64,000 nt of DNA from assembly GCA_017428085.1 (NCBI GenBank), contig JAFRRP010000075.1, positions 1-64,000 of the forward strand. The letters run 5' to 3'. The notes under the pieces are model-generated. The model was not told the origin of the DNA, did not search any database, and saw only the letters and a program-made list of their open reading frames with translations. Each line of letters starts with the position of its first letter. The stretch's first letter is position 1. The translations under genes and the position numbers were made by a program. The DNA comes from Clostridia bacterium. Lineage in GTDB: Bacteria; Bacillota; Clostridia; Oscillospirales; Acutalibacteraceae. Below are positions 36,206 to 43,477 of the stretch, one piece after another.

Positions 36206-37666
36206 CTATACCGCGGGAAATCTTGCCTCAAACACCGCGCCGTTATCGTTATGCACGGTGATATCGCCGCCGCAGCCCTGCGCCGCGGCCTGCGCGATGG
36301 CAAGCCCGATGCCGTGCCTGCCGCCCCTGCCTTTATACATCCGTTCAAACACGTGGGGCAGGTCCTCCGCCGCCACGCCGGGGCCGTCGTCCGCCACGGC
36401 GAAGAAAACGGCGTCTGTCTCGTTCCGGCAGCGAAGGGTCACCGTCTTTCCGGCGTACCGGATCGCGTTAGAGATGAGATTGCCGATCATGCGCTCCGCG
36501 TCCTGCTCCCGAATGGCCAGAAAAACGGGCGATTCGTCGAAATCGAACACGAAGGAGACGCCCTGTTGCTCCGCCTGGGCGCGCTGCTCCGAGACGCAGA
36601 GGGAAAACACCTCGCGCAGGTCCAACGGCTGCGCGCCGCCGTCCTGTTTTTCTTTCCCGGCGCGGGAGAGGAACAGGATATCCTCCACCAGCCCGCCGAG
36701 CTTGTCCGACTCCGTCAAAATGACCTTCGCGGCGCTCTGCGGCTCCATCAGTCCGTAGACGATGCCCTCCGCGTTGCCGCGGATGGAGGTCAGCGGCGTG
36801 CGCAGCTCGTGGGAGACGTTCTGGAAAAAGACCTCCTGCTTTTGCCGCGCCTCCCGCAGGTCGGCGGCCATCTTGTTCATGGACCCCGCCAATTCGTCGA
36901 ACTCCAGATCCCGGAAATCCAGTGCCCGCGGCTCCAGATTGCCGCCGCCGATCTCCCCGGCGAAATCGGAGAGCTGCCGCACCGGCTCGGCGAAGGAGCG
37001 CGCGAAACGGCGGCTCAGGAGGACGGAGATCAGAATGGCGGCCAGGATCACCAGCAGCAGCACGGTATTGATCCGCTGCGTGAAATTGCTGATGGACGTC
37101 ACGTCCACGTAGGTGAGCAGATATTGCCCTGCCGTCACCGGGTCATCCTCCACGGAAACCACGTATGTCCCGTTTTCCAGAAAAACGACCTTGTTCTGAA
37201 GCGTTCCGTCTCCGGCGCGCCCCTGATACCACGCGGCCAGGTCTTCGGCAACCGTTTCGTCGCCGTGCAGATTGGAAAGCAGGCTGCCGTCGGCGTTCAG
37301 CAGTACGGCGCTGCCTTTGGTGCCCATGACGCGGTCGGGGTTCCCGTCAAACGGAGCTTCTTTCTCCTCTTCCGGACTCTGTTCCTGTTCTTCGCCCTGC
37401 GCCTGAGTCTGGGCCCGGTCCTGCTTCCTGCCCTGTCCCGGCCCCTTGTTCTGGCCCTGCTTCTGCTCCGGGATCTGACCCTGCCCGTCGTCCCTGCGTT
37501 CGTCCGACGCGCTCTGCGAGACGCCGGAAAGCTGCGCCGACACCCGCGAGCGGATAAACCCGTACATGGAAAGGTTGAAGGCCAGCGCCACGATCAGCAG
37601 GATCGCCGTCGTCAGGCCGATCAGCGTGGCCAGCAGATGCGTTTTGATATGCCATTGGCGTTTCAT
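36206..37666 (-). CDS. sensor histidine kinase with Gln-rich extracellular insert
   Basis: 486 residues, start ATG 37666 overlapping the regulator stop (ATGA). TM1 (about 10-32), an extracellular region with a low-complexity stretch rich in Gln, Glu, Gly and Lys (about 50-95), a small sensor part, TM2 (LLLVILAAILISVLLS), HAMP (FARSFAEPVRQLSDFAG), HisKA with the phospho-His FFQNVSHELRTPLTSIRGN, and the ATPase (MIGNLISNAIRYAG; VADDGPGVAAEDLPHVFERM; GRHGIGLAIAQAAAQGCGG). The signal is unknown. It works with the OmpR-type regulator upstream. Confidence 0.93.
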   Translation of the reverse strand: MKRQWHIKTHLLATLIGLTTAILLIVALAFNLSMYGFIRSRVSAQLSGVSQSASDERRDDGQGQIPEQKQGQNKGPGQGRKQDRAQTQAQGEEQEQSPEEEKEAPFDGNPDRVMGTKGSAVLLNADGSLLSNLHGDETVAEDLAAWYQGRAGDGTLQNKVVFLENGTYVVSVEDDPVTAGQYLLTYVDVTSISNFTQRINTVLLLVILAAILISVLLSRRFARSFAEPVRQLSDFAGEIGGGNLEPRALDFRDLEFDELAGSMNKMAADLREARQKQEVFFQNVSHELRTPLTSIRGNAEGIVYGLMEPQSAAKVILTESDKLGGLVEDILFLSRAGKEKQDGGAQPLDLREVFSLCVSEQRAQAEQQGVSFVFDFDESPVFLAIREQDAERMIGNLISNAIRYAGKTVTLRCRNETDAVFFAVADDGPGVAAEDLPHVFERMYKGRGGRHGIGLAIAQAAAQGCGGDITVHNDNGAVFEARFPAV

Positions 37667-38364
37667 TTGCTCTCCTCCAGCCGGAATCCGTAGCCCCACA
37701 CCGCCGCGATGTTCACGCCGCCGCCATCCAGCTTCTGCCGCAATCTTCGCACCGTGTCGTCCGTCGCGCGGGTCTCCACGGCGGTCTCGTAGCCCCACAC
37801 GGTATTCAGCAGCTCCTCCCGGGAGACCGCCTGGTCCGCGTGCGCCATCAGATATTTCAGCACCTCGTATTCCGTCGGCGTCAGCGCCAGCGGCTGCCCG
37901 TTCATCAGGATATGCCGCCGGTCCTCATCCAGCGTCAGATTGCCGACTTTCGTGCCCTGCGTTTCCTCCGGCGTATATTTCCGGCTCTCGAATTCCACGC
38001 GGCGGAACAGCGCCCGCACGCGCAGCATCAGCGACATGGCGGAAAAGGGCTTCGTGATGTAGTCGTCGCTGCCAAGGCCCAGCCCCATGGCGTAATCGTT
38101 GTCCGAATCCCGCGCGGTGAGCATGATGATGGGGACGGTGCTTTGCTCCCGCAGCGCGGTGCAGACCGCGAACCCGTCTTTCCCCGGCATCATCACGTCC
38201 AGGATCGCCAGATCGCAGGGACGCTGGGCAAACCGCGCCAGCAGCAGGTCGCCGGTGGGGAAGTCCTCCACCTCGTACCCGTCGCTGCTCAAAAAGGTTT
38301 TGACGATCTGACGGATATTGTCGTCGTCGTCCGCCACGTAGATCAGCTTCTTGTCTTCCTGCAT
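37663..38364 (-). CDS. OmpR-family response regulator
   Basis: 233 residues, start ATG 38364 with GAGAGGATG. Receiver domain: acidic pocket VADDDDNIRQIV, phospho-acceptor LAILDVMMPGKDG, MLTARDS and the Lys in YITKPFSAMSL. C-terminal winged helix: LTPTEYEVLKYLMAHADQAV, LLNTVWGYE, DDTVRRLRQKL. It is co-transcribed with the kinase at 36206. Confidence 0.93.
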   Translation of the reverse strand: MQEDKKLIYVADDDDNIRQIVKTFLSSDGYEVEDFPTGDLLLARFAQRPCDLAILDVMMPGKDGFAVCTALREQSTVPIIMLTARDSDNDYAMGLGLGSDDYITKPFSAMSLMLRVRALFRRVEFESRKYTPEETQGTKVGNLTLDEDRRHILMNGQPLALTPTEYEVLKYLMAHADQAVSREELLNTVWGYETAVETRATDDTVRRLRQKLDGGGVNIAAVWGYGFRLEESK

Positions 38365-38637
38365 GGAACATCCTCTCCCTTTCCGAATCACTGAACCCAT
38401 TGTACCATCGGAAGAAACGAAAATCAATCGTTTTCCGTTTCCAAACTGAAGCAATCCGTACGAAACGTTTCGTGTGATTTTCGTATTTTTGCTCTCGTTC
38501 CCGAATTGAGGCATTATTCTATCGGGGCGTTCTATCTTGGATTATGATTCAGAAATCCCCTTCATTGAATGATGGTTTTTTCTGAAAGCGTGGCCAGGTA
38601 TGGCTTTCTTTAAGCGAAGGAAACGGAGGTGAATTCC

Positions 38638-38922
38638 ATGTTTGACGCGCAGCAATCCCTGTTTTCCGAAATCATCACAGCCAGCAAGGTTTTCTTCAAA
38701 AAACTGCCGGGAAAAATCGGAAAGAAAACGAAACAAGCCGTCAGCCGCAAAACGCCGGCGGTTTTACCGTGTAAACATCAGATATTACGGCGACGCCGCA
38801 CCATTCGGCCCGCGCGGACGGCGCAGCAGATTTTTTTTCGTCAGATTGCAACATTTCCGGTCTCCGAACTGTATATAGGGCAGAGCGGCACGAAAAGCGG
38901 CTCACGATCATCCGAAAAGTGA
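38638..38922 (+). CDS. possible small ORF upstream of the cystatin-like gene
   Basis: The ATG at 38638 has a very good ribosome site (GGAGGTGA, 5 bases away). The first about 38 residues (MFDAQQSLFSEIITASKVFF, KKLPGKIGKKTKQAVSRK) look like a basic amphipathic peptide; the rest is Arg-rich and not protein-like. It could be a leader ORF for the operon downstream, or chance. No family recognised. Confidence 0.25.
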   Translation: MFDAQQSLFSEIITASKVFFKKLPGKIGKKTKQAVSRKTPAVLPCKHQILRRRRTIRPARTAQQIFFRQIATFPVSELYIGQSGTKSGSRSSEK

Positions 38923-38932
38923 GGGTAAAAAA

Positions 38933-40012
38933 ATGAAAAAGTTGATTGCAGTATTCGTGTGTTTCGCGCTCCTTGTTTCCGGCGTCGCCGTTTTGGCGGG
39001 ATGCGGCAAACAAAATGCGAAAAAGAAAGCCCCGGCCGAAAACGGGATCACCGGCGGCGAGATCGCCGGCGGATGGACAAAAGCGGATTCCCCCGCGATC
39101 ACCGAGGATTTCAGAAAAGTGTTTGACAACGCAACGCAAGCGCTGACCGGTATGCAGTATATCCCCGTGGCGTATCTCGCAAGCCAGGTGGTGGCCGGAA
39201 CGAACCACCGCGTGCTGTGCAAGGCGACGGCCACGGTCCCCGACGCGGCAACGACCTATGCGATCGTGACGGTTTACGAGGATCTGAACGGCAACGCGGA
39301 GATCACCGAGGTCGTTAACAGCGACGCGCAGGCGACCGTCGCGGACGGCGACGTGGACGGCGGCTGGATCGAGCCCGATTCTCCGGCTGTGCCGGAGGAC
39401 GCCCTGCAGGCGCTGACCAAAGCGTGCGAAACGCTCACCGGCGCGGAATATACGCCCGTCGCCCTGCTGGCCGCGCAGATCGTTGCCGGAACGAATTACC
39501 GTGTGCTCTGTGAATCCAGAGCGACCGTGCCGGACGCCGAAACGGAATACGTGATCGTTACCGTGTACGCGGACCCACAGGGCAACGCTCAGATCACCGA
39601 GACGGTCGGGTTCGCATCCGAACCGCTTTCGCAAATTGCCAACCCGCTGGTGGAATACGGCAGCGACATGGATTCGCTTGACGCCGCGCAGGAAGCCGTC
39701 GGCTTCACGCTGACGGTACCCGGAAGCGTCACCCCGGAAAACTTTATCGTGATCAGCGGGGAGACGCTGGAGGTGGATTTTGACGGCGGTTATATCCGCA
39801 AGGCAAAGGGCGGCGAGGATATCAGCGGCGATTACAACGAGTATGACGCCGTTGAAACCAAAACGGCCGAAGGCAAAGACGTCACGCTGAAAGGAAACGC
39901 GGGCAAAGTTATGCTTGCCATCTGGACCGAAGGCGATTATACTTATTGTGTGGGCGTTACCGACGGTATTCCCGAAGCCGAAATGCTTTCCCTGGTAAAT
40001 GAAATAAAGTAA
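38933..40012 (+). CDS. lipoprotein with two cystatin-like repeats and an anti-sigma-like C-terminal domain
   Basis: 359 residues. The lipoprotein signal ends at Cys24 (VLAGC). Two repeats of about 95 residues follow, each with a GGW start, a helix, then YxPVxxLxxQxVAGTNxRVLC: QVVAG at 85-89 and QIVAG at 182-186. QxVxG plus the N-terminal Gly is the protease-binding wedge of cystatins; the C-terminal Trp hairpin is absent. The last about 120 residues (VGFTLTVPGSVTPENFIVIS; ISGDYNEYDAVET) match the end of the anti-sigma factor two genes on (SGDYNEYEKIET). It may inhibit outside Cys proteases or act as a surface sensor; inhibition is inferred only. Confidence 0.75.
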   Translation: MKKLIAVFVCFALLVSGVAVLAGCGKQNAKKKAPAENGITGGEIAGGWTKADSPAITEDFRKVFDNATQALTGMQYIPVAYLASQVVAGTNHRVLCKATATVPDAATTYAIVTVYEDLNGNAEITEVVNSDAQATVADGDVDGGWIEPDSPAVPEDALQALTKACETLTGAEYTPVALLAAQIVAGTNYRVLCESRATVPDAETEYVIVTVYADPQGNAQITETVGFASEPLSQIANPLVEYGSDMDSLDAAQEAVGFTLTVPGSVTPENFIVISGETLEVDFDGGYIRKAKGGEDISGDYNEYDAVETKTAEGKDVTLKGNAGKVMLAIWTEGDYTYCVGVTDGIPEAEMLSLVNEIK

Positions 40013-40022
40013 GGTAGTTTTT

Positions 40023-40607
40023 ATGACAAGAGCAGTACCCGTATCACCGTTCCATATCCTGATCAGGACCGCAGCGCTGTTTTCGGCGACGCTTGCTTCC
40101 GCGCGATGTGAAACGGAAACGGATACCGCTCTTGTGAACGAAAAAGCGGCGTATTTTTTCGACCGGTTCGGCAACGCGATCCTGCGCCTGGCCTATTCCT
40201 ATCTCCATAATACGCAGGACAGCGAGGACGTTCTGCAGGAGACGCTGATCCGGTATATCCGGACCGCCCCGCGGTTTGAAAACGACAAACACGCCAAGGC
40301 GTGGCTGCTGCGGGTGGCGGCCAATCTCAGCAAAAACAGGATCGGCTACAACAAGACCCGTCTGGCGGATGAGCTGAACGACGAGCTGATCGCCGAGGAA
40401 CGGGAGGACCTTTCCTTTGTGTGGCAGGCGGTCAAGGAGCTGCCGCTCAAACAGCGGGAGGCGGTCCACCTGTTCTATCAGGAGGGCTATGCCACCGCCG
40501 AGATCGCCGCGATCCTCAGCCGCAATGAAAGTACCGTCCGGTCCGACCTGAAAAGAGGCAGGGAAGCGCTGCGAAAAATCTTGAAGGAGGCGTATGATTT
40601 TGAATAA
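40023..40607 (+). CDS. ECF-type RNA polymerase sigma factor
   Basis: 194 residues. Sigma region 2 is clear (FFDRFGNAILRLAYSYLHNT, QDSEDVLQETLIRYI, AKAWLLRVAANLSKN), as is region 4 (LPLKQREAVHLFYQEGYATA, EIAAILSRNESTVRSDLKRG). The first about 38 residues look less protein-like, so a GTG start near 40134 is possible; AAGG stands 9 bases before the ATG used. It begins 10 bases after the cystatin-like gene and overlaps the anti-sigma gene by 14 bases, so the three form one operon. Confidence 0.88.
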   Translation: MTRAVPVSPFHILIRTAALFSATLASARCETETDTALVNEKAAYFFDRFGNAILRLAYSYLHNTQDSEDVLQETLIRYIRTAPRFENDKHAKAWLLRVAANLSKNRIGYNKTRLADELNDELIAEEREDLSFVWQAVKELPLKQREAVHLFYQEGYATAEIAAILSRNESTVRSDLKRGREALRKILKEAYDFE

Positions 40608-41202
40608 ATATAACGAAGTGATGGCGCGCGTTACCGTCTCCGAAGAGATGAAAAGCAGGATCCTCGGCAGTCTTCCGTCCGCTGATTTCAAACAAACCAA
40701 GGTCGTCCGCTTCCCGAACGCCAAAAGATATATCGCGCTGGCCGCCTGTTTTGCCGTCGTGCTGATCAGCGTGCTCGCTGTTACAATGATAAACCGCCAG
40801 CCGCAACCCGGCGGTGATCTGACAGCCGGCGCGCCGGTGGAATACCAAAGCGCCAGGGAACTGTCCAAAGCGTCCGGGATCGAAATAGAGGACCTGCGGG
40901 ATCTGCCGTTTGAAGCGACGCAGACCGTCTATCTGGACTATCAGATCAATCTGGCGGAGATCAATTATTCAAACGAAACGCAAAGTCTGTGGTACCGTGC
41001 GTCCAGGGGCGGCGGAGATAATTCCGGCGACTATAACGAATACGAAAAGATCGAGACGAGGGAGGCCGGCGGCGTAACGTTCACGTTAAAAGGAAACGGC
41101 GATCTGATTTACTGCGCGCTGTATGAAAAGAACGGCTGTTCTTATTCCATCGGAAGCACCGGCGGACTGACCTGGCGGCAGATCGAAGAGATGATACCGT
41201 AA
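40594..41202 (+). CDS. membrane anti-sigma factor for the ECF sigma
   Basis: 202 residues. A short cytoplasmic N-terminus (MARVTVSEEMKSRILGSL), one membrane helix (ALAACFAVVLISVLAVTMI, about 47-66) and an extracellular domain ending SGDYNEYEKIETREAGGVTF and LTWRQIEEMIP. It overlaps the sigma gene, the usual place for its antagonist. The outer domain is related to the C-terminal domain of the cystatin-like lipoprotein, suggesting the two bind the same partner or compete. Confidence 0.75.
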   Translation: MILNKYNEVMARVTVSEEMKSRILGSLPSADFKQTKVVRFPNAKRYIALAACFAVVLISVLAVTMINRQPQPGGDLTAGAPVEYQSARELSKASGIEIEDLRDLPFEATQTVYLDYQINLAEINYSNETQSLWYRASRGGGDNSGDYNEYEKIETREAGGVTFTLKGNGDLIYCALYEKNGCSYSIGSTGGLTWRQIEEMIP

Positions 41203-41283: not shown

Positions 41284-41395
41284 CCGAATCAATCCCCGAA
41301 AAACGGCGGGACGCCGCCGTTTTTGGGGATTTCCTTTTGCCTGAAGAACTTGTCCTTATCGCTTCTGCCCCATGTTTGCCCCAGACAGGTTTTTT
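41284..41395. repeat. dispersed intergenic repeat, copy C
   Basis: Third copy: AATCAATCCCCGAAAAACGG, then GACGCCGCCGTTTTTGGGG (a hairpin with arms of about 16 bases), TTTCCTTTTGCCTGAAG, TTGTCCTTATCGCTT, CCCATGTTTGCCCCA. It lies downstream of the sigma/anti-sigma operon and its hairpin could serve as a terminator. The rest of the 369-base gap shows nothing else. Confidence 0.8.
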
Positions 41396-41571: not shown

Positions 41572-42246
41572 ATGCGGATACTGCTTGCGGAGGACGAACG
41601 GGCGCTTTCCAAGGCGATCGTCAAGATATTTGAAAAGAACAACTATTCGGCGGACGCCGTATACGACGGCGAAGAAGCGCTGAATTATCTGGAGCTGGGC
41701 TGTTACGACGTCGCGGTGCTGGATATCATGATGCCGAAAATGGACGGGATCACCGTGCTGAAAAAGCTCCGCGCCGCCGGGAATCAGATCCCGGTGCTGA
41801 TGCTGACGGCGAAATCCGAGATCGAGGACCGCGTGCTGGGGCTGGACAGCGGCGCCAACGATTACCTGCCCAAGCCCTTCGACACGCGGGAGCTGCTGGC
41901 GCGCATCCGCAGCATCACCCGCACGCAGACGGCGGCCGACAACAAGCTGACCTTCGGCAGCGTCTCGCTTGACCGCGCGACCTTTGAGCTGTCTTCCCCC
42001 TCCGGCAGCTTCCGGCTGGCCAACAAGGAATATCAGATAATGGAATACCTCATGGCAAACCCGCACCGGATCATTTCGCCCGAGATGTTCATGGAAAAGA
42101 TCTGGGGATACGACAGCGAGACCGAGCTCAACGTCGTCTGGGTGTATATCTCGTATCTCCGCAAAAAGCTGACCGCGCTGCAGGCCGATATCCAGATCAA
42201 GTCCTCCCGGAACGCGGGGTATTCTTTGGAGAACTGCCATGATTAA
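41572..42246 (+). CDS. OmpR-family response regulator
   Basis: 224 residues. Receiver: ILLAEDERALSKAIV, YDVAVLDIMMPKMDGI (phospho-Asp), VLMLTAKSE and YLPKPFDTREL. DNA-binding wing: LANKEYQIMEYLMANPHRII, KIWGYDSETELNVVWVYISY. It overlaps the kinase gene by 8 bases. Its place directly before the VTC-DUF4956-CotH genes suggests it controls them (inference). Confidence 0.93.
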   Translation: MRILLAEDERALSKAIVKIFEKNNYSADAVYDGEEALNYLELGCYDVAVLDIMMPKMDGITVLKKLRAAGNQIPVLMLTAKSEIEDRVLGLDSGANDYLPKPFDTRELLARIRSITRTQTAADNKLTFGSVSLDRATFELSSPSGSFRLANKEYQIMEYLMANPHRIISPEMFMEKIWGYDSETELNVVWVYISYLRKKLTALQADIQIKSSRNAGYSLENCHD

Positions 42247-43477
42247 CCGGTTAAAACGGAAATTTATCCTGATCGCCACCCTGTTTATGCTGCTCCTGAT
42301 GGCGGCGCTGCTGGCGATCATGAACACGGTCAACTTCCGGGAGGTCGTCACGGAAAGCGACGCCGTTCTGGACGTCCTTTCCCAACCGGGGGCGCCTTTT
42401 CTGAATGAGAGACGCCCGCCGGAACCGGACGGCGCGCGGGATTTCGTGCCGCGCGGCATGTCGCCGGAGGTACCCTATGAATCGCGGTTCTTCGTGGCGG
42501 CGGTTTCCCCGGAAGGAGAGATCCTGCAGTCGGACCTGTCCCGGATCGTTTCCGTGGACGACGCTACCGCGGAGGAATATATCAGCCGTGCGCTGGACAG
42601 CAAAAAGGACCGCGGCTTTATCGGACAATTCCGGTTTGATAAAACAACGGACGACAGCGGCGCAAGGATCCTTTTCCTGGATTGCGGGCGGCGGCTGGAT
42701 TCCTTCCGTTCGTTTCTGTGGACCAGCGTGACCGTGGGCGCCGCCGGGTGCGCCGTCGTGTTTCTCGCGTTCGTGCTGACCGCGGGAAGGATCGTCGCCC
42801 CGATCGCCGAAAGCTACGAGAAACAAAAACGGTTCATTTCCGACGCGGGGCATGAGATCAAAACGCCGCTTACCATTATCAACGCCAACGTGGACCTGCT
42901 GGCGCTGGACGGCGAATCGGAGGAGCTGACGGAGATCCGCCAGCAGACAGGCCGCCTGACGGACCTGACCAACCAACTGGTGATGCTCTCCAAAATGGAA
43001 GAGCAGACGCATACCCTGCAAAAAATCGAGATCCCCTTATCCGATCTCGTCGGTGAAACGGTCGGCTCCTTCCGCGCGCCCGCCGTCGCCCGCGATATCG
43101 AACTGGTCAGCCGCGTCGAACCGAACGTAACGGTAAAGGCCTCGCCCGACGCCGTCCGTCAGCTGCTGTCCGTCCTGCTGGAAAACGCCGTGAAGTACAC
43201 GCCGAAGGGCGGAGAGATCGCGGTGGAAATGAAACGGCACAAAAAATCCGCCGTGATCTCGGTCGTCAACCCAACCGACGACACGATAGACGAAAAAGAC
43301 CTTCCGCACGTTTTCGACCGGTTTTACCGGACGGACGTTTCCAGAAATTCCCAAACCGGCGGGCACGGGATCGGGCTGTCCGTGGCAAAGGCAATCGCCG
43401 ACGCGCACGGCGGCGAGATCGCCGCGTCGACAAGCGACGGGCACGATTTCCGCGTGACGGTTTCGCTCCCATTGTAG
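42239..43477 (+). CDS. sensor histidine kinase
   Basis: 412 residues. TM1 (ILIATLFMLLLMAALLAIM), an outer sensor region of about 130 residues, TM2 (SVTVGAAGCAVVFLAFVLTA), HisKA with RFISDAGHEIKTPLTIINAN, and the ATPase (LLENAVKYTPKGGEI; IDEKDLPHVFDRFYR; GGHGIGLSVAKAIADAHGG). No HAMP is obvious. Partner of the regulator before it; a terminator follows. Confidence 0.93.
   Translation: MINRLKRKFILIATLFMLLLMAALLAIMNTVNFREVVTESDAVLDVLSQPGAPFLNERRPPEPDGARDFVPRGMSPEVPYESRFFVAAVSPEGEILQSDLSRIVSVDDATAEEYISRALDSKKDRGFIGQFRFDKTTDDSGARILFLDCGRRLDSFRSFLWTSVTVGAAGCAVVFLAFVLTAGRIVAPIAESYEKQKRFISDAGHEIKTPLTIINANVDLLALDGESEELTEIRQQTGRLTDLTNQLVMLSKMEEQTHTLQKIEIPLSDLVGETVGSFRAPAVARDIELVSRVEPNVTVKASPDAVRQLLSVLLENAVKYTPKGGEIAVEMKRHKKSAVISVVNPTDDTIDEKDLPHVFDRFYRTDVSRNSQTGGHGIGLSVAKAIADAHGGEIAASTSDGHDFRVTVSLPL

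Follow-up and report, generated by a model that had tools for sequence, protein, structure and literature searches.

Bacterial cystatins have hitherto been portrayed as rare, horizontally acquired proteins of unknown use. Stefins (type-1 cystatins) have already been listed in the class Clostridia, within a bacterial distribution that was called 'extremely limited' in 2009 (Kordis and Turk, PMC2784779). Among extracytoplasmic function (ECF) sigma factor systems, RsiV of Bacillus subtilis is a single receptor that both senses and inhibits lysozyme (PMC5014341), and in the RseB/MucB systems of RseA/MucA an extracytoplasmic partner is encoded together with the sigma and anti-sigma factors (PMC7400510). 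Bacterial stefins, enzyme-sensing ECF systems and RseB-like co-regulators are each known; what is new in the locus described here is their coupling in one cassette. A literature search did not find a cassette combining these three, nor anything relevant on a cystatin with an ECF sigma factor.

The locus is a three-gene operon on the forward strand of a contig of a Clostridia bacterium, and lies in the window (the whole stretch of 64 kb that was analysed). It encodes a lipoprotein, an ECF sigma factor and an anti-sigma factor with one transmembrane helix, and its limits are the promoter at 38848 and a terminator-like hairpin near 41304-41316. The original prediction had given its span as 38638-41202; both repeats lie where they had been predicted, but the left end had to be moved. 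The ORF starting at 38638 is probably not a gene, because it overlaps the promoter and is similar in relatives only over a short 3' stretch. The features of the operon are as follows.

38848..38877, + strand: ECF-type promoter GCAACA-N15-CTGTATATA, ahead of the operon, with fixed spacing across sigma-linked cystatin genes
38933..40012, + strand: lipoprotein gene (359 aa; signal peptide, lipobox LAGC24, two stefin-like cystatin domains, DUF4367-like C-terminal domain)
39056..39331, + strand: predicted cystatin repeat 1, residues ~42-133 (GG46-47, QVVAG85-89, second-hairpin Gly120), from the AlphaFold fold, conservation and the VIA structural aligner (Z about 7.4)
39347..39619, + strand: predicted cystatin repeat 2, residues ~139-229 (GG143-144, QIVAG182-186, Gly217), from the AlphaFold fold and VIA (Z up to 9.2)
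39629..40009, + strand: DUF4367-like C-terminal domain of the lipoprotein, residues 233-359, from hhalign against the anti-sigma domain and against DUF4367, and from VIA
40023..40607, + strand: ECF sigma factor gene (Pfam Sigma70_r2 and r4_2)
40594..41202, + strand: anti-sigma factor gene, overlapping the 3' end of the sigma gene, with a single transmembrane helix at about residues 43-66
40831..41199, + strand: DUF4367-like extracytoplasmic domain of the anti-sigma factor (AlphaFold pLDDT >90; VIA)
near 41304..41316, + strand: terminator-like hairpin with a T run behind it at the operon end, from a simple consensus scan

The sigma factor matches Sigma70 regions 2 and 4 only (PF04542, 52.4 bits; PF08281, 47.8 bits). 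Its N-terminal extension of ~39 aa (MTRAVPVSPFHILIRTAALF..., 40023-40139) is partly hydrophobic, and is kept in close relatives and present in another form in Ruminococcus. OmpR-type two-component systems flank the operon on both sides (36206-38514 and 41572-43477), and PADLOC found no anti-phage family. Eukaryotic contamination was ruled out, because many species have the gene within a bacterial operon.

The original prediction had described the first gene product as a tandem cystatin-like lipoprotein, and had named folds unlike that of cystatin as evidence against this description. The folds predicted for both repeats are those of a cystatin according to AlphaFold, Foldseek and VIA, in agreement with a profile search of the PDB. 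The two repeats share 51 of 93 residues (55% identity), and each carries the QxVAG motif and the wedge glycine that had been predicted, at the residues listed above. In the AlphaFold model of the lipoprotein (59 alignment rows, pLDDT 88), a helix followed by four strands occurs twice; in repeat 1 the helix spans residues 58-68 and the strands residues 74-86, 90-100, 107-116 and 122-133, with QVVAG precisely on the first hairpin. The top six Foldseek matches are all cystatin-superfamily proteins, the leading ones being potato multicystatin, a phytocystatin, fetuin-B and latexin. VIA aligned repeat 2 with many cystatins at Z 8-9, the highest value being obtained over 85-87 residues, and 17 chains reached Z >=8 against the cystatin repeats.

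A profile built from 64 single repeats was compared with 177,635 PDB sequences, and its best 22 matches were all cystatins or cystatin-like inhibitors (best E 5.4e-5). The lipoprotein alone (P0001) gave two matches only in the PDB, both marginal and both cystatins in register, and no family in Pfam or NCBIfam. The Pfam Cystatin family, at E up to 1, was found in 38 of the 59 full-length relatives, and a relative with four repeats, the protein of locus L109, scored 44.4 bits against a cut-off of 22.2. A search of the organism's own genome with PF00031 gave no match, and curated searches therefore overlook this cystatin branch.

With stefins, the repeats have in common the fold, the N-terminal Gly-Gly, the QVVAGTN loop and the lack of the type-2 disulfide pattern. 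In the second hairpin the Pro-Trp (PW) of type-2 cystatins is absent, and the loop D-[LP]-x-G aligns with the LPG loop of stefin A. Tandem cystatin-fold domains also occur in plant multicystatin, fetuin-B and latexin, but these proteins are eukaryotic and have neither a lipoprotein anchor nor a link to transcription. It should be kept in mind that SQAPI, too, matches 31 of the 59 members, that the cystatin fold also inhibits protease classes other than cysteine proteases (fetuin-B and latexin inhibit metalloproteases), and that several cystatin-fold proteins (SQAPI, fetuin, latexin) do not inhibit cysteine proteases. On the grounds of profile similarity and modelled structure, both repeats are cystatin domains by homology and fold.

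The six most conserved residues in 165 repeats are Q85, G89, N91, G46, V87 and G120. The QxVxG motif is present in 157 of 161 homologous repeats, compared with 2% of composition-shuffled repeats, and in 31 of the 32 repeats of the sigma-linked subset. The N-terminal glycines G46 and G47 are conserved across repeats at 98% and 92%, respectively, and the loop glycine of the second hairpin at 97%. The N-terminal Gly, the first hairpin and the Gly of the second hairpin are the three parts of the cystatin wedge that enter papain-like active sites; their conservation in both repeats therefore favours, short of proof, the view that both are working protease inhibitors. Each repeat also has one cysteine (Cys96 and Cys193 in P0001) just past the first hairpin (NYxxLC), which is 94% conserved and lies outside the classical wedge.

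A scan of a genome collection of 84,980 species, queried with an alignment (P0001 alone as a pattern query matched nothing), revealed at least 535 confirmed stretches with the cystatin domain, a far wider distribution than that of bacterial stefins in 2009 (PMC2784779). Unlike the stefins listed there, the proteins of the present type are tandem, secreted, lipid-anchored, fused to a DUF4367-like domain and probably under the control of an ECF sigma factor. In the 80 loci that were examined, mostly from ruminant Clostridia, which is partly an effect of ranking, the repeats are nearly always paired, with four repeats in three cases. A single repeat was observed within a 646-aa S-layer-homology protein (L033:277-2214). 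Of 295 genomes of the order, taken as a fixed sample, 20 have the domain when matches within the signal peptide are disregarded; low-scoring matches in 132 of 152 genomes were due to similarity in the signal peptide, at positions 1 to about 60, and have been set aside.

In 16 of the 80 loci the sigma factor and/or its anti-sigma factor adjoins the cystatin gene. Together with the window itself, these make up a sigma-linked set of 17 members, of which L136 differs in the type of its sigma factor. Nine of the 16 loci (L060-L064, L091, L114, L116, L132) have a cystatin pair fused to the C-terminal domain (hereafter C-domain) and encoded upstream of the sigma factor; L114 and L116 represent the operon of Ruminococcus albus. 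A cystatin gene without the C-domain precedes the sigma gene in L100, L110 and L124 and follows the anti-sigma gene in L125, L127 and L130, the first gene of L127 encoding a separate C-domain protein. Many cystatin lipoproteins, moreover, have no C-domain or sigma neighbour, and signalling is therefore not their general role.

The promoter element GCAACA-N15-CTGTATATA lies at a fixed spacing upstream of 16 of the 17 sigma-linked cystatin genes (20 of 78 cystatin genes overall), with a chance expectation of 0.0024 per gene if the kinship of the loci is ignored. With both strands counted, the 692 kb of sequence from relative loci contain it 21 times, and 20 of these 21 copies precede cystatin genes; in Ruminococcus a GTCACA variant is found. 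The cystatin genes located 3' of the anti-sigma gene (L125, L127, L130) have their own copy of the promoter. Because the element precedes nearly all sigma-linked cystatin genes, including these separate downstream ones, the cystatin genes are probably an output of the operon's sigma factor, which we infer to read this element; the lipoprotein would then probably be an output of the sigma factor as well as a possible input. In the organism's own genome there are two exact matches in all, including that of the operon, and two more with one mismatch. As a reversed control pattern gave two matches, no claim is made about a wider regulon. A related TGCAACA element with another -10 (GTCTTA/CACTTA) lies upstream of eight genes for standalone cystatin lipoproteins (L067, L069, L073, L076, L077, L092, L097, L102); a different ECF sigma factor might read it.

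These data bear on the possibility that the lipoprotein is an output only, i.e. a sigma-induced surface shield against cysteine proteases, with the signal entering through the anti-sigma factor's own domain and the C-domain merely placing the shield at the same surface site. Such a role would agree with the separate cystatin genes that have the sigma promoter but not the C-domain (L125, L127, L130, L103, L109, L128), and with L065, which retains promoter and C-domain with no adjacent sigma factor. It would leave unexplained, however, what is seen around the sigma factor itself. The sigma subfamily occurs in 10 of the 295 genomes (E <1e-40), in all ten beside a protein ending in the C-domain, and the N-terminal module of that protein is a tandem cystatin in four genomes and an unrelated module of the Cu_amine_oxidN1 (copper-amine-oxidase-N) type in six (Pfam-confirmed in four of the six). 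We consider a pure shield rather unlikely, though a serious competitor. The same sigma/anti-sigma cassette and promoter element were observed in L021-L025 and L032, where a Cu_amine_oxidN1 protein replaces the cystatin one. Cystatin and Cu_amine_oxidN1 thus appear, from these architectures, to be exchangeable input modules on one C-domain.

That the C-domain is common to the lipoprotein and the anti-sigma factor had likewise been predicted, with both copies of the SGDYNEY domain at the positions where they are found. The two copies are 40% identical over 62 aa (E 5e-10), and hhalign aligned them over 130 columns with a probability of 100% (E 5.6e-41), so that on sequence comparison their homology is beyond doubt. 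They would belong to, or border on, DUF4367 (PF14285): the anti-sigma factor (P0003) scored 15.1 bits against a Pfam cut-off of 22.1 and its orthologue in genome G028 scored 23.0, and the hhalign probabilities against DUF4367 were 95 and 92, the latter for the lipoprotein C-domain. A literature search found no paper joining DUF4367 with anti-sigma factors and no function assigned to it. A tree placed the domains of the anti-sigma factors together (98/95) and separate from the lipoprotein domains, with L136 as the sole exception; the pair therefore looks like an old duplication that was retained through changes of the N-terminal module.

The structural comparison pointed to a further likeness. 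With the anti-sigma domain, the first six rows of VIA were all the C-domain of RseB/MucB (Z 6.7-7.4), and with the lipoprotein C-domain that of RseB was among the best (Z 7.1), the RseB/MucB alignments spanning 85-93 residues. Sequence comparison showed no direct link between the lipoprotein C-domain and the single E. coli RseB sequence, and a weak one between DUF4367 and RseB (probability 78 over 23 columns). Since sequence support is absent or weak and Z is <8 (about 7, which the tool rates as middling), the likeness to the RseB/MucB C-domain is to be taken as a structural lead rather than as membership.

If the lead is followed, the lipoprotein might be an RseB-like co-regulator, whose C-domain clamps the anti-sigma factor and shields it from site-1 cleavage and whose cystatin pair binds a ligand that is not a protease. 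The structural matches, and the swapping of cystatin and Cu_amine_oxidN1 on one C-domain, are in favour of this idea. The RseB/MucB systems (PMC7400510) resemble the operon in having an extracytoplasmic partner encoded with sigma and anti-sigma factors, and a C-domain of comparable fold (Z about 7). However, the lipid-sensing LolA-like N-domain of RseB/MucB is absent here, its place being taken by a tandem cystatin or Cu_amine_oxidN1 (Pfam found neither MucB_RseB nor LolA in the lipoprotein), and the anti-sigma factor, unlike that of the RseB/MucB systems, bears the C-domain as well. QxVxG and the N-terminal Gly, which make contact with papain-like enzymes, tend to be lost in cystatins that do not inhibit, and are kept here at 97-99% in both repeats. 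A clamp of this kind is therefore regarded as unlikely.

As to the proteases that the cystatin pair might bind, microbial papain-like enzymes had been put forward, and in this respect the organism's own genome is suggestive, encoding two secreted proteases of the papain family (C1A) that are very large and have lectin-like domains and numerous Cys-rich repeats:

L142:2040-5324: secreted C1A protease, own genome
L143:2947-6975: secreted C1A protease, own genome

Chagasins are thought to restrain papain-family proteases of their own cell, and the lipoprotein could similarly restrain the cell's own secreted enzymes, with the sigma module keeping the balance. This would fit the presence of the two proteases, a C1A gene in L059 at a distance of about 3 kb from that of the cystatin, and the higher frequency of C1A in cystatin-positive genomes (7 of 20, compared with 29 of 275 others; Fisher p 0.005, with kinship ignored and PepC-like matches set aside by hand). 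On the other hand, 13 of the 20 cystatin-positive genomes, which are drafts, have no clear C1A, among them G015, G028 and G205, three of the four genomes in which the sigma-cystatin operon occurs. Endogenous control is in our opinion improbable, and a microbial papain-like target is plausible. Because of these three genomes, a target from outside the cell is at least as likely. Rumen ciliates eat bacteria, and highly expressed C1A peptidases have been reported in Entodinium (PMC6925433).

On balance, we give about even chances to the proposal that the lipoprotein is a surface-tethered double stefin, which inhibits papain-family proteases and also reports them to the anti-sigma factor. The operon would be an autoregulated ECF sigma module, whose sigma factor would transcribe a lipid-anchored, double-headed stefin-type inhibitor having the fold, wedge and promoter described above. 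Outside the membrane, the cystatin wedges would bind papain-family cysteine proteases of predatory ciliates, the host, the feed or neighbouring bacteria. The C-domain may allow the lipoprotein to touch the anti-sigma factor or to compete with it for a common partner, so that protease occupancy would alter the state of the anti-sigma factor, release the sigma factor and cause more inhibitor to be made. More tentatively, the lipoprotein may be a receptor first of all, a bound cysteine protease such as a ciliate cathepsin being sensed via the tandem stefin; as the same C-domain accepts other input modules, the sigma module would then be a plug-in receptor platform.

The proposed double role of inhibitor and reporter resembles that of the RsiV/SigV system in that, within an ECF sigma operon, a surface receptor that inhibits an attacking enzyme may also signal its presence (PMC5014341). 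RsiV, however, is itself the anti-sigma factor that binds the enzyme, whereas the inhibitor proposed here resides on a lipoprotein of its own, the anti-sigma factor has only the DUF4367-like domain, and the ligand would be a cysteine protease.

The cystatins considered here belong to a large lipoprotein family at the cell surface of Clostridia from gut and rumen, part of which is wired into a conserved sigma/anti-sigma cassette with its own promoter, and this wiring offers a direct and testable clue to the purpose of a bacterial cystatin. It suggests that the operon is a dedicated means of sensing and blunting attack by papain-like enzymes. We know of no earlier case of a cysteine-protease inhibitor serving envelope-stress signalling; if the proposal is true, the operon would be the first such case known to us.
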